Shown: in pieces, positions 12,663 to 23,558 of the stretch | Layout: the number at the start of each line of letters is the position of its first letter | Position numbering within the stretch: the first letter of the stretch is position 1 | Assembly (NCBI GenBank): GCA_963693285.1 | Contig: OY848917.1 | Coordinates: forward strand, 29,213,245-29,277,244 | Direction of reading: 5' to 3' | DNA length: 64,000 nucleotides | DNA from: Xestospongia muta | Lineage: Eukaryota; Porifera; Demospongiae; Haplosclerida; Petrosiidae | The notes under the pieces: model-generated | Seen by the model: only the letters and a program-made list of their open reading frames with translations | Databases searched by the model: none | What the model was told of the DNA's origin: nothing | Made by a program: the position numbers and the translations under genes

Positions 12663-13788
12663 TTAAGGTTGTGTAGATTCAGCAGAACTTTTAACCCAGC
12701 TCATTAAGCCAGTCAGTTGAGTGTGAGCTTCAATAGGTACTGCTATTACAGCACTCTCAGTAGCACTGAGTAATTCAGACATTGCTGTCATTAGGTTCTC
12801 AGCATTGACTGTCAATAGTTGGGTGGCTTCTTTATCTTCTTTTGGGTCTGTGTAAAACGAATGACCTTAGGTTACTACTTATCACCAGCAATACTTATTA
12901 TAGTCAATTATGTATGTGTTCATGATTACCTATTCCTTTTTGTCTGGTATTCTCTACAGCAACATTAATCTCAAGTTGATGGGCAATAGTTTGAACGGCC
13001 ACATGGCTTTGTACCAAAGTCTGTAAGAGTTAAAATAAATTTTTAAAAATTTATTTATATACTAAACATAATATGTGAGATTAAAACTTTCTTTCTGCAT
13101 AGCTACATGTCATAAACATTGTACTTCTCTGGAATATATGAGAAAAAGTTGGCCAGTCTACATATATAGCATCATTGGATATCATGATAAAATGTTGTTC
13201 AAATATGTCTTATGTTCAATACAAATTTAATATCCTATTACTTTTGAGTAAAACCTATTAAACTATCATAATATCTATTTACTAGATAATAATATTTGCT
13301 CACTTTGTTAATTTGCTTATCTCTGCAAACATTAGCAACCTTTTTAGCCATTTTGTTGACTTCCTCACTCTCCCTTGTAATAAGGGTAGCTGTTTTCATA
13401 AAATCCTCTTTGGATGTCACCTCACCAACTTCATCCCTACAATAATAATGATACCATAACACTGCAAAGAATTAAGTATAAACTCATTGAAGTATTATTT
13501 TGTACTTAAGGCTATGATCAATGGCAAATAAGTACACAAGAAACTATAATGAATTGTAAATTGTAGTTGATATATCATTAAACTTTATCCTTTTATAAAA
13601 TATTAAGTAATAACAATTAATACATGTAATAGATGGCATAAAAAGACACACATGATTGAACCTATGACTTACTTGGCAAATTTTGACATTTTCATCATCA
13701 ATCTTGCCATTCGTTTAGTTGCTACTATCATATCGTTATCTTTATCCTTCCATTGTTTAGCTTTTCTATGAAGACAATGTGCAGCAAA
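12663..13788 (-). other. Vinculin-tail-like helical bundle (exons 33-36)
   Basis: Residues about 1463-1636. The first helix reads [16 protein letters not shown] followed by [17 protein letters not shown]; vinculin tail has LHDEARKWSSKGNDII then AAAKRMALLMAEMSRL. The next helices, [19 protein letters not shown] and [17 protein letters not shown], match the vinculin pattern [21 protein letters not shown]. The last exons carry [17 protein letters not shown] (vinculin EQATEMLVHNAQNLMQSV) and end [12 protein letters not shown] before TAA at 12663. In vinculin this bundle binds F-actin and acidic lipids. FAK ends in a FAT domain, also a four-helix bundle, but the sequence here is closer to vinculin/alpha-catenin. 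Confidence 0.85.
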
Positions 13789-22700: not shown

Positions 22701-23558
22701 ATTGAAAGATACATCCCTCACTAGTCAAACTCATATACTGTTGTAATGTGGTCTGAATCATTTTGTTTAAGTTACGTTTCTATAAATAACCGTCAAATAA
22801 AAACATCAAATATATAGTTGACTTACTCGAGCTGATTGCAAAAAAGACTTCTTAAAAAACTTTTCAAAACCATTATCTCTTCTATATCGTATCAAATATT
22901 AGACTTCATATATTGATTAATACATGTACTTACTCCACCATAGCAAAGGTTTCTTTCTTCTTCAAGGCAGCTTGTGGCATATCTTTAAAGAAACGTCTCA
23001 TTTCCAAACAGCCTAGTCTCAAAGCTGTATCATCATCAACAACAATGGAGGCATCTTCCAAATATGTGTGGAATATCTGTAGAAAAGTAGAAATATAACT
23101 GAGTATAATGACAATTGATTACCTGATCATAATAATAGGAAAAAGACACAGGATCTATTGAAAATAAGTGTTGTGGTGTCTTTGGCAACACTCGTATTCT
23201 CAATGAAAATCTAAATTATAAAATAAATCAATATTTATATATGGTAGTATAATACCTCCAATCATCAAGTGATTGAGATCCTAAATGTGCTCTTATGAGT
23301 TCAAGTACACTGTACCCTGGAGTAAGCCAGTGATGTTCCTCAGTCTTAGTGTGATGGAATAAAATGCCAAATAACTGTTGGGCCACATCGATATTAGCTC
23401 TGAGTCGACTCAAAATATAATACACTATATCCTATGAAGAATCATAACGTCAAGATCAATATGACAAGTATTCATACCGCTACTTCTGTCTTCTCGTCCA
23501 ATTTAACAGCTCTAGACTCTCCATTGACTAACAAAACTCGAATAACCTGTTCAGTCAT
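12663..23558 (-). CDS. FERM-tyrosine kinase-ankyrin-ZU5-death domain-vinculin tail fusion protein
   Basis: Thirty-six exons, all GT-AG and phase-consistent, give about 1,636 residues: 23478-23558, 23256-23431, 23123-23210, 22934-23076, 22827-22881, 22636-22779, 22353-22433, 22208-22306, 22044-22158, 21898-21990, 21070-21197, 20541-20625, 20370-20473, 20102-20318, 19752-20052, 19595-19694, 19085-19183, 18510-18608, 18268-18366, 18008-18106, 16520-16618, 16262-16363, 16035-16218, 15410-15972, 15192-15326, 14974-15145, 14751-14909, 14301-14621, 14178-14246, 14055-14117, 13951-14007, 13840-13895, 13673-13788, 13304-13436, 12930-13020, 12663-12847. Domains in order: FAK-like FERM (1-358), FAK-like kinase (about 359-650), ankyrin units (671-930), ZU5 and following region (931-1220), Pro/Ser/Thr linker, death domain (about 1280-1370), proline-rich micro-exons (1381-1462) and vinculin-tail-like bundle (1463-1636). 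The catalytic set is complete. The family knowledge supports an adhesion kinase; the single-transcript model is inference from frame and order. The start at 23558 is the first ATG before the FERM F1 lobe. Confidence 0.8.
13840..14246 (-). other. Proline-rich micro-exons (29-32)
   Basis: Three tandem exons of 69, 63 and 57 bases, all phase 1-1, encode variants of one motif: [26 protein letters not shown] and [14 protein letters not shown]. They look like duplicates of one ancestral exon. A fourth exon (56 bases) adds an acidic stretch, [17 protein letters not shown]. The PPP.IP..P..KK pattern fits SH3, EVH1 or profilin-type ligands, and vinculin has a proline-rich strap in the same place before its tail. 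Confidence 0.8.
14301..14621 (-). other. Death-domain exon
   Basis: One 321-base exon, phase 1 at both ends, encodes [28 protein letters not shown], and [20 protein letters not shown]. The W..IG..L, L..VL..W and W..II..V pattern is that of a death-fold domain of the type common in sponge and cnidarian receptors. Death domains assemble homotypic signalling complexes. The exon is a symmetrical cassette, so it could be skipped or shuffled without frame change. Confidence 0.8.
14974..15972 (-). other. ZU5 and following region (exons 24-26)
   Basis: After the last ankyrin repeat the frame enters a beta-rich region with [14 protein letters not shown], the typical ZU5 signature (Y-G-V..IP..A), and [15 protein letters not shown], with the end [14 protein letters not shown] further 100 residues (exons 25-26, from [15 protein letters not shown] to [12 protein letters not shown]) may be a UPA-like or sponge-specific module. 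In ankyrins, UNC5 and PIDD, ZU5 precedes a death domain, as here. The join [12 protein letters not shown] across 16035/15972 restores a valine codon split 1+2, which supports the exon order. Confidence 0.8.
17094..17241. mobile_element. Small MITE-like element with terminal inverted repeats
   Basis: TTCTTGGTGTAAC at 17094-17106 is the exact reverse complement of GTTACACCAAGAA at 17229-17241. Inside is a perfect 28-base palindrome (17117-17144, half site GTGATGTCATCATA), and the half site recurs near 17184-17200. The element sits in the long intron between ankyrin exons 20 and 21. Confidence 0.7.
18762..18830 (-). pseudogene. Dead ankyrin exon within the array
   Basis: Between exons 17 and 18 the minus strand reads YTEMIQLLL, an in-frame TAA, then [10 protein letters not shown]. 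The front half of the unit, including TALHWAS, is missing, and the GT donor is altered. It is a remnant of a lost repeat exon; the exon model skips it without breaking phase. Confidence 0.75.
19595..21197 (-). other. FAK-family tyrosine kinase block (exons 11-16)
   Basis: Glycine loop [11 protein letters not shown] (from residue 386), VAVK lysine K411, catalytic loop HRDIAARN (502-509), DFG (522-524), activation-loop end [19 protein letters not shown] and [20 protein letters not shown]. These are nearly word for word FAK, so it is a tyrosine kinase with all catalytic residues. The activation loop reads EANFYIVSRG where FAK has STYYKASKG, so only the second tyrosine is kept. The tail [15 protein letters not shown] resembles the helix after the FAK kinase domain. 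Exon 16 ends in phase 0 and joins directly to the ankyrin exons. Confidence 0.93.
20741..21045. mobile_element. Unclassified insertion in the kinase intron between exons 11 and 12
   Basis: About 300 bases of higher GC than the surroundings contain repeated GTGGTC.GGCCATGG motifs (near 20797 and 20990) and an AT microsatellite at about 20953-20977. Composition and position inside a coding intron suggest a non-autonomous element; no terminal repeats were identified. Confidence 0.35.
21898..23558 (-). other. FERM-domain block of the fusion gene (exons 1-10)
   Basis: F1 begins [18 protein letters not shown]2 shows [13 protein letters not shown], matching IALKLGCLEIRR of FAK, then [12 protein letters not shown] against LKRFFPKSLLDS, and [25 protein letters not shown] spacing as in FAK. 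F3 ends with [10 protein letters not shown], matching ADLIDGYCRL of FAK. In FAK this domain binds receptor tails and phosphoinositides and autoinhibits the kinase. The linker after it is Ser/Pro-rich, and DSDYDKLM places a tyrosine (Y363) in an acidic setting just before the kinase, where FAK has its Y397 autophosphorylation site. Confidence 0.88.

Follow-up and report, generated by a model that had tools for sequence, protein, structure and literature searches.

A predicted sponge gene that looks like a FAK duplicate joined inside introns to a vinculin-tailed scaffold

A predicted gene in a 64,000-nt stretch of the Xestospongia muta genome (the window) places a FAK-type FERM domain and tyrosine kinase ahead of ankyrin repeats, a ZU5 domain, a death domain, a proline-rich linker and a vinculin tail, raising the question of whether a single gene of this composition exists and how it could have arisen. 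The observed frame is confirmed; re-derivation from the window sequence reproduces the 36 minus-strand exons of the initial annotation (12663..23558), which sum to 4,911 nt (1,636 codons and a stop codon, with no internal stop) and are separated by 35 introns, all GT-AG. The frame is open across each domain boundary, and the four junctions to which attention had been drawn, kinase-ankyrin (19595/19183), ankyrin-ZU5 (16035/15972), death-proline-rich (14301/14246) and proline-rich-vinculin tail (13840/13788), are recovered with the same coordinates and phases. This exon frame is not due to chance because exons 1-16 project onto the FAK locus on C8 of the same genome with GT-AG at each shared boundary. 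Exons 17-21 are 99 nt apiece, and all seven ankyrin exons begin in phase 0. A tRNA scan and an Rfam scan of the 64-kb window found nothing. The features of the gene are collected in Table 1.

Table 1. Features of the predicted fusion gene (positions within the window)
Feature	Position	Strand	Basis
Whole predicted gene, 36 exons, 1,636 aa	12663..23558	-	re-derived model
Exons 1-10, FAK-type FERM (aa 15-317) and linker, duplicated from C8 FAK gene	21898..23558	-	profile and homology
Exons 11-15, FAK-type tyrosine kinase (aa 381-634), P-loop and APE motifs among those present	19752..21197	-	profile
Exon 11, 18-nt (6-codon) deletion relative to C8 FAK	21070..21197	-	alignment
Exon 16, post-kinase tail, ends VPSDGQ at phase-0 donor common with C8 FAK	19595..19694	-	
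Intron 16, first ~43 nt, homologous to FAK intron 16, FAK-side breakpoint	19552..19594	-	
Candidate alternative 9-codon first exon with ATG and GTAAGT donor, joining exon 17 in phase 0, evidence of an internal start	19411..19437	-	
AATAAA within intron 16, possible internal poly(A) signal	19398..19403	-	
Intron 16, last ~115 nt, aligns with scaffold-family member at C1:5851579	19184..19300	-	
Exons 17-23, ankyrin repeats	16035..19183	-	profile
Exon 24, ZU5 domain	15410..15972	-	profile
Exons 25-26, conserved stretch at UPA place (position only)	14974..15326	-	
Exon 27, Ser/Thr/Pro linker	14751..14909	-	
Exon 28, death domain	14301..14621	-	profile, family members
Exons 29-32, three proline-rich PPP..P.KP stretches and acidic linker	13840..14246	-	
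Exons 33-36, vinculin tail (from aa 1463)	12663..13788	-	profile
ATTAAA directly past stop codon, likely gene 3' end	12596..12601	-	

The C8 locus holds an intact FAK gene (FERM-kinase-FAT), of which exons 1-16 of the window gene are a DNA-level duplicate with exon phases common to both. The start of exon 1 differs between the two genes, homology beginning ~3 codons past the new ATG, and for a 756-nt stretch at the 5' end the genome search reported no further copy. An unusual exon 9/10 choice (22044/21990) is matched at C8 FAK with the same GTCAGT donor and exon lengths of 115 and 93, and the length differences in exons 11, 15 and 16 (18, 6 and 9 nt) are all multiples of three. Codon positions 1, 2 and 3 differ at 13.9, 8.1 and 24.7%, compared with 29.5% of aligned intron bases, and the FAK half (80% amino acid identity, dN 0.104, dS 0.491) shows purifying selection with a dN/dS of 0.21 (bootstrap 0.16-0.27). 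Eight outside exon-15 proteins, our selection from 120 listed, match the window copy better in five cases and C8 FAK in two, with one even (for example, 77/93 to the window copy versus 74/93 to C8 FAK); the window copy is not decaying, because it matches such proteins as well as C8 FAK does. A close relative of the FAK half, P0175, on a 3,723-bp contig, matches the window copy at 58/61 and C8 FAK at 48/60.

FERM_N_2 and FERM_M pass their Pfam cut-offs with FERM_C_FAK1 slightly under (26.2 versus 27.7), and the best PDB matches of the FERM region are PYK2 (4eku) and FAK (2al6), placing it in the FAK type. The kinase retains its catalytic motifs and is likewise of FAK type by sequence, with FAK1 the top-scoring of the single-kinase chains (321 bits). 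Between FERM and kinase, FAK carries the YAE/V autophosphorylation motif, which is the Src-SH2 site. The 6-codon deletion falls directly after the tyrosine of this motif (DGDYAEVRDPDKLM versus DSDYDKLM), so that Tyr 363 is kept, AEVRDP is deleted and YAEV becomes YDKL. The FAT domain recruits FAK to focal adhesions and binds paxillin/talin. Focal_AT is not found in the fusion protein at E<=1, compared with 1e-33 in C8 FAK, and the C8 FAK C terminus has no match in the window (best E 0.52). The genome search gave two FERM-FAK loci, two close kinase exons and one FAT match (on C8), and therefore no unassigned FAT remains that could belong to another, independent FAK gene. The fusion gene has lost both FAT and the YAE site; to our knowledge, FAK is otherwise strikingly uniform in its FERM-kinase-FAT organization.

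The part of the protein following exon 16 (966 of 1,636 aa) is a member of an existing, expanded family of ankyrin-ZU5-death-Pro-vinculin tail proteins. The domain combination had been put forward as novel, and indeed no description of it was found among the literature listings covered, but membership in this large family rules out a one-off assembly of five separate domains. ZU5 upstream and a vinculin tail downstream accompany 43 of 74 close death-exon loci, window locus counted (best 74 of the 150 matches listed, down to 120 bits, taken with the best 72 of 150 ZU5 matches listed and 53 first-exon rows among 154 vinculin-tail matches, some of which are unlisted). Candidates scored were 150 of 1,340 for the death exon and 150 of 273 for the kinase, making the family counts lower bounds. 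Only at the window locus does a kinase lie upstream, among the 144 kinase and 150 death-exon matches listed, all of which were used in redoing a first version of this comparison that took 42 of the 144 kinase matches. At eight fetched scaffold loci, the ankyrin-ZU5, death-Pro and Pro-vinculin tail junctions project to GT-AG in 7/8, 7/8 and 8/8, respectively, and the small proline-rich exons 30-31 are absent or unalignable in 5/8. By these projections three of the four junctions are family-wide and the kinase-ankyrin join is unique among the matches listed. The scaffold half has dN/dS values of 0.20-0.58 against 11 loci (exons 24-26, 28, 33, 34 and 36 as far as matched) and 0.47 against a lone death exon in locus L013; a close relative, P0019, on a 19,593-bp contig, is 93% identical over 92% of the death exon. 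Other genome loci carry a vinculin tail, ruling out that the tail is unique to this gene. The vinculin-tail scaffold family appears undescribed. A death-exon profile run against genome-contig and viral-contig sets gave 27 and 29 pattern matches with none confirmed, and a search of residues 925-1636 against a large protein set, in which the matches examined are exon-sized frames, scored 7,987 candidates with none at E<=0.001, a result that is a poor guide to transcripts.

Profile matches support each of the domain identities proposed at the outset, the death domain being weak but consistent with the family. Ankyrin repeats, ZU5 and death domain follow in order, with Death in the window copy itself below the Pfam cut-off of 22.6 (whole protein, E 0.041 and 14.5 bits; exon alone, E 0.00097 and 19.7 bits) and the one ZU5 match barely reaching its cut-off within the whole protein (21.1 versus 21). 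Pfam Death matches 14/14 family members at E<=1 (best 8e-5) and Pfam ZU5 matches 12/12 at the same threshold. The death profile retrieves FADD from the PDB at E 0.0062, and a single-sequence model of the death exon has six helices (pLDDT 51.7). A PDB search with the ZU5 profile is empty at E<=1, the corresponding model of exon 24 has a pLDDT of 29.7, and the UPA profile has no match in the fusion protein. Neither model is good enough to serve as proof of a fold. The C-terminal region corresponds in sequence to the five-helix vinculin tail, with the Pfam match limited to profile positions 629-846 of 852 and the head domains D1-D4 absent. Its PDB matches are led by VIN1 (6bfi, 110.6 bits), followed by vinculin (up to 95.3) and α-catenins (up to 39.7), and these matches together with the genome's single FAT match on C8 rule out that the tail is FAT and bear out the vinculin tail of the initial annotation.

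Intron 16 is composite, with a FAK-derived 5' end and a scaffold-derived 3' end, the latter, along with exon 17, aligning with intron 1 and the first ankyrin exon of the scaffold relative; a DNA search with this last part gave at least 20 matches. These observations are probably explained by exon shuffling, with a partial FAK copy joined to a scaffold gene in phase-0 introns and one fusion product resulting. The copy would begin near codon 9 of exon 1 and end a short way into intron 16, and would have been inserted between the starter exon and the first ankyrin exon of an ankyrin-ZU5-death-Pro-vinculin tail gene, FAK exon 16 splicing in frame to the ankyrin block because both introns are phase 0. 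Similar DNA to the family starter exon occurs at 20 or more places, and at 17 of the 20 listed a death exon lies within the next 17 kb. The 13-codon phase-0 starter exon has no copy in the window among the matches listed, and two starter patterns (up to 3 mismatches), which hit 4 and 6 of nine scaffold loci, respectively, do not occur in the window. A central part of intron 16, ~250 nt, for which no source was found counts against the fusion. A blastn comparison with 20 loci (E<=1e-3) matched neither the 2,942 nt preceding exon 1 nor the remaining 368 nt of intron 16, and local alignments of intron 16 with upstream parts of seven family copies lie within the range of 30 shuffles each (best, L014, 32 versus a shuffle maximum of 34).

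Other features of intron 16 also count against the fusion. The donor of the candidate first exon scores 9.8, as does the real exon-16 donor, compared with 6.9 for the best such candidate in the seven other introns of at least 200 nt. Set against 2,000 first-order random sequences the candidate has P ~0.009, in a test picked once it had been seen. AATAAA follows the candidate's donor, reading on past exon 16 adds a single codon before a stop (donor GTATGA), and the exon 17 acceptor ranks 29/35. The locus might thus yield two products, the long fusion and a short ankyrin-vinculin tail scaffold from an internal promoter and the candidate exon, possibly with a short FERM-kinase ending at the intron-16 poly(A) signal. 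The relatives' short phase-0 starter exons (13 codons, or possibly 3 in our reading of L030) are in keeping with this, but the candidate exon was picked after looking and does not recognisably resemble the known family starter, and two products are considered unlikely. The same features could mark two neighbouring genes, in which case a FERM-kinase paralogue lacking FAT would end in intron 16 and an ordinary scaffold gene would start there; a poly(A) end past exon 16 had been named as the outcome that would separate the blocks, and these sequence features come close to it. However, the candidate second start (19437) precedes the sole AATAAA/ATTAAA of intron 16 (19403), which would make the two genes overlap; the FAK copy, though it has no tail of its own, is conserved to the same degree as full FAK; and the exon-16 donor has kept its strength (rank 7/35), making two genes quite improbable. 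An assembly artefact joining unrelated loci is very improbable despite tandem arrays of similar genes near the window (C1:29.07-29.20 Mb), as the FAK half has diverged from the C8 gene (dS 0.49) and is a separate copy, the genome search gave no spare FAT, the window has no N and the two halves are each listed on a contig of the same size (2,809,776).

The predicted fusion protein resembles FAK/PYK2 (PTK2, PTK2B) in its FERM and kinase matches and in the exon structure common with C8 FAK, and differs in the missing FAT, the altered autophosphorylation motif and the long C-terminal scaffold. The order of ankyrin repeats, ZU5 and death domain is that of the ankyrins, whereas there are ~7 repeats, one recognised ZU5 and no UPA match, with a kinase in front and the proline-rich linker and vinculin tail after the death domain. 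Vinculin shares the tail, matched nearly full length, and the preceding proline-rich linker, but not the head. PIDD1/UNC5 (ZU5-UPA-death) share ZU5 followed by a death domain and differ in their LRR or netrin-receptor parts; what is presumably the place of the HFS cleavage motif of PIDD reads DFS here. The scaffold family has the same exon order and junctions, differing in that only the window member, among the matches listed, has FERM-kinase in front.

With the shuffled gene as the preferred reading, the product would retain the FERM-gated tyrosine kinase of FAK with FAT and the Src-SH2 YAE site gone. Ankyrin repeats would govern partner choice, the ZU5 and death domains assembly with like proteins, and the vinculin tail binding to F-actin and PIP2. 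We propose that the fusion protein alone in the scaffold family bears a kinase, and that death/ankyrin contacts would bring it to assemblies formed on actin by its ~40 non-catalytic relatives, which it would phosphorylate. It may, as first suggested, couple matrix adhesion to death-fold signalling; what was lost is FAT, the focal-adhesion-targeting part of FAK. A more speculative and rather unlikely extension gives the expanded actin-anchored death-fold family a role in monitoring or reshaping the cortex, perhaps as part of immunity or self-recognition, shuffling having armed exactly one member with a FAK kinase. In that case the family would have gained a tyrosine-phosphorylation output independent of focal-adhesion targeting, with an adhesion kinase rewired into a death-fold system.

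On sequence grounds, the joining of a FAK duplicate to a vinculin-tailed scaffold looks like a new adhesion protein made from two genes joined inside introns, a case of intron-phase exon shuffling in which one breakpoint is seen and the FAK donor gene is still present. A FAK copy that keeps its kinase under selection with FAT swapped for a vinculin-tailed scaffold amounts to a natural domain-swap experiment, posing the question of whether FAK signalling can sit on actin without integrin adhesion complexes. The scaffold family itself (at least 43 loci by strict count) links death-fold expansions of early animals to actin-adhesion machinery.

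The 36 minus-strand exons of the predicted gene at 12663..23558 join into 4,911 nucleotides encoding 1,636 amino acids without an internal stop, and all 35 introns have GT-AG borders; re-derivation from the sequence reproduced the frame of the initial annotation and, exactly, its coordinates for the four domain junctions. Most introns are short (43-83 nucleotides in 23 of 35), and those at the ankyrin-ZU5 (62 nucleotides), death-proline-rich (54 nucleotides) and proline-rich-vinculin tail (51 nucleotides) junctions are in our judgement without space for a gene end and a fresh start. 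The kinase-ankyrin intron (intron 16, 19595/19183) is 411 nucleotides long and is judged to be the only one of the four roomy enough for both.

Pfam profiles run on the whole predicted protein recovered the FERM, kinase, ankyrin and vinculin tail regions of the initial annotation, with ZU5 only just reaching its cut-off and Death falling short of it in the window copy. Both weaker labels are credible at the level of the family of ankyrin-ZU5-death-proline-rich-vinculin tail (scaffold) genes found elsewhere in the genome, since all members scanned match at E<=1 (Death 14/14, best 8e-5; ZU5 12/12, best 1.3e-7). The death-exon family profile finds FADD in the PDB at 0.0062, the ZU5 family profile finds no PDB chain at E<=1, and exons 25-26 are called UPA-like from their position alone. 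PDB matches of the FERM region are PYK2 and FAK, those of the tail are VIN1 (6bfi), which we take to be a sponge protein, and vinculin, with alpha-catenin far lower, and the kinase places FAK1 chains at the top save for one double-kinase EGFR chain whose score is the sum over two domains. The VIN1 match, the presence of FAK and vinculin sequences and the shortness of the introns fit the sponge origin given in the initial annotation. The two GTPase open frames elsewhere in the window are immunity-like.

Domains of the predicted protein (amino acids) and other features of the window (nucleotides)
Feature	Position	Strand	Evidence
FERM_N_2, FERM_M, FERM_C_FAK1	aa 15-317 (jointly)		Pfam; FERM_C_FAK1 slightly under cut-off
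Tyrosine kinase	aa 381-634		Pfam 9.1e-87
Ankyrin repeats			Pfam 1.6e-88
ZU5	aa 953-1024		Pfam 4e-4, barely at cut-off
Death	aa 1282-1332		Pfam 0.041, under cut-off
Vinculin	aa 1408-1628		Pfam 5e-34, last quarter of profile only
Vps62-family open frame	1781-2380	-	
GTPase open frame	38815-39615	+	MMR_HSR1, AIG1, both under cut-offs
76-bp tandem repeat	41995-44104		27.8 copies, 96% matches; coincides with GC and GC-skew peak
GTPase open frame	48133-49521	+	AIG1, MMR_HSR1, IIGP, all over cut-offs
Transposase fragment	57823-58254	-	Psq-type DNA-binding domain; Tc5 match under cut-off
Transposase fragment	59790-60398	-	hAT dimerisation region

In the genome searched (158 Mb, 28 contigs) the kinase exon has a single close relative, on contig C8 (86%, the second-best by score being 43%), and the FERM exons match at two places only, the window and C8. 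The C8 gene encodes a normal FAK of 988 amino acids with FERM-kinase-proline-rich-FAT order (Focal_AT 1e-33) and holds the sole FAT match detected in the genome. Window positions 23551-19552 align with it as three blocks spanning exons and introns, the phases of exons 1-16 are identical, and the C8 gene has GT-AG at all shared boundaries including the odd exon 9/10 pair. Homology starts slightly inside exon 1, 3' of FAK's own start codon (86% from there versus 46% in the 5' flank), and fades about 43 nucleotides into intron 16 (73% before, 44% beyond); the copy therefore lacks the FAK start and promoter as well as the proline-rich and FAT exons.

Relatives of the death and vinculin tail exons are spread over many contigs. 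The set of 74 close death-exon loci includes that of the window. In 61 of them ZU5 precedes the death exon by 0.3-2.5 kb, in 46 the first vinculin tail exon follows it on that strand at a distance of 0.1-3 kb, and in 43 both are present; a death exon lies upstream of 46 of the 53 first vinculin tail exons. Ankyrin, ZU5, death and vinculin tail follow in order at nine loci (L012, L015-L017, L019, L021-L023, L025) and at L029 as far as that locus extends; no vinculin tail was found in L014 or in L031, which stops about 0.7 kb past its last match. In the aligned loci the ankyrin-ZU5, death-proline-rich and proline-rich-tail junctions are kept in 7/8, 7/8 and 8/8. A tandem array of 11 death-exon copies spaced 11.7-15.5 kb apart lies near the window at C1:29.07-29.20 Mb (29071124-29199433), and family genes, tandem and dispersed, also occupy C1:14.77-17.02 Mb and C8:0.2-1.3 Mb. 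Each of the 150 death-exon matches listed was checked against the full 144 kinase matches listed, and only the one in the window is preceded by a kinase on its own strand within 20 kb.

L014 (C8:832001-842000) is preceded by the apparent last proline/acidic exon of another scaffold copy and may be a further rearranged junction. Three adjacent vinculin tail exon sets at C1:28842495-28859995 (L027, L028), with no upstream death exon among the matches listed, differ from the vinculin-like gene at C13:2.883-2.888 Mb and are a possible origin of the vinculin tail exons. Within intron 17 (window about 18840-18755, minus strand) a decayed ankyrin-like exon akin to exon 18, identified by eye, suggests a repeat since lost.

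Family members may open with a starter exon of 13 codons (e.g. MADIQISSDKRNH), phase 0, followed some hundreds of nucleotides later by the first ankyrin exon. It was located directly at five places (L012, two in L015, L016, L020) and not in two further upstream stretches inspected (L017, L014). Starter-like DNA occurs at 20 or more places, and 17 of those listed have a death exon no more than 17 kb away; none of the places listed is in the window, and pattern searches of the window, run with controls, likewise gave none. A relative at C1:5.85 Mb matches the last approximately 115 nucleotides of window intron 16 together with exon 17 at 72%. The fusion would have arisen by breakage of a FAK copy within intron 16 and of a scaffold gene within intron 1 and joining of the broken ends, with FAK exon 16 immediately in frame with the first ankyrin exon because both introns are phase 0. 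This would be classical intron-phase exon shuffling in which the FAK donor gene survives intact. About 250 nucleotides in the middle of intron 16 lie outside both the FAK and the scaffold homology.

Intron 16 also holds evidence against the fusion. An ATG there opens a stretch of nine codons that ends in GTAAGT and would splice in phase to exon 17, with a start-exon score matched by 0.9% of 2,000 random sequences in a test devised post hoc, and AATAAA lies shortly 3' of this candidate donor, so an internal start yielding a second, shorter product is a live option. The exon 17 acceptor is rather weak (rank 29 of 35), but those of exons 29 and 33 are comparably so (25th and 33rd) at junctions that are family-wide. 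Two separate genes split at intron 16 are less likely, a clean adjoining pair being disfavored as the candidate start in intron 16 precedes the candidate poly(A) signal.

The FAK half differs from C8 FAK with a dN/dS of 0.21 (0.16-0.27; 668 codons, 80% identity), and the compared exons of the scaffold half give 0.20-0.58 against 11 loci, with 0.47 for the lone death exon of L013, all values being pairwise and thus means over both lineages. Differences from FAK at codon positions 1, 2 and 3 are 13.9, 8.1 and 24.7%, versus 29.5% in introns. In exon 15 the window copy and C8 FAK are roughly equidistant from eight outside proteins, and a ninth, P0175, matches the window copy at 58/61 and seems to be a copy of the window type present in other material. 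The outside protein P0019 is a near relative of the window death exon (93%). Each half is thus retained here and, taken singly, probably in a second sample as well.

Among the papers listed by full-text searches of the open-licence literature, none describes a FAK with ankyrin, ZU5, death or vinculin domains, and none a family that combines ZU5 and death domains with a vinculin tail; this large family is apparently undescribed so far and of interest by itself. PMC6820919 reports single homologues of vinculin and FAK in Ephydatia muelleri, with FAK present in the integrin precipitate. TRADD-N adaptor domains are greatly expanded in Amphimedon (357 proteins) according to PMC8195603, which also treats ZU5/FIIND autoproteolysis, NACHT-Zu5 and NACHT-Ank genes are described in early animals (PMC12909245), and ankyrin-repeat genes are included among the LPS-responsive genes of Halichondria (PMC8242945).

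The window copy retains the activation loop tyrosine (FYIVSRG) and has lost AEVRDP, the six residues just past the tyrosine of the FAK autophosphorylation motif. This motif is the Src-SH2 docking sequence, which the loss should weaken. A vinculin tail following a proline-rich linker stands where FAT was, and the predicted product would be a FERM-gated kinase held on F-actin and death-fold partners rather than on paxillin and talin. Because none of the listed scaffold relatives has an adjoining kinase, the window member could be the source of a phosphorylation output for them.
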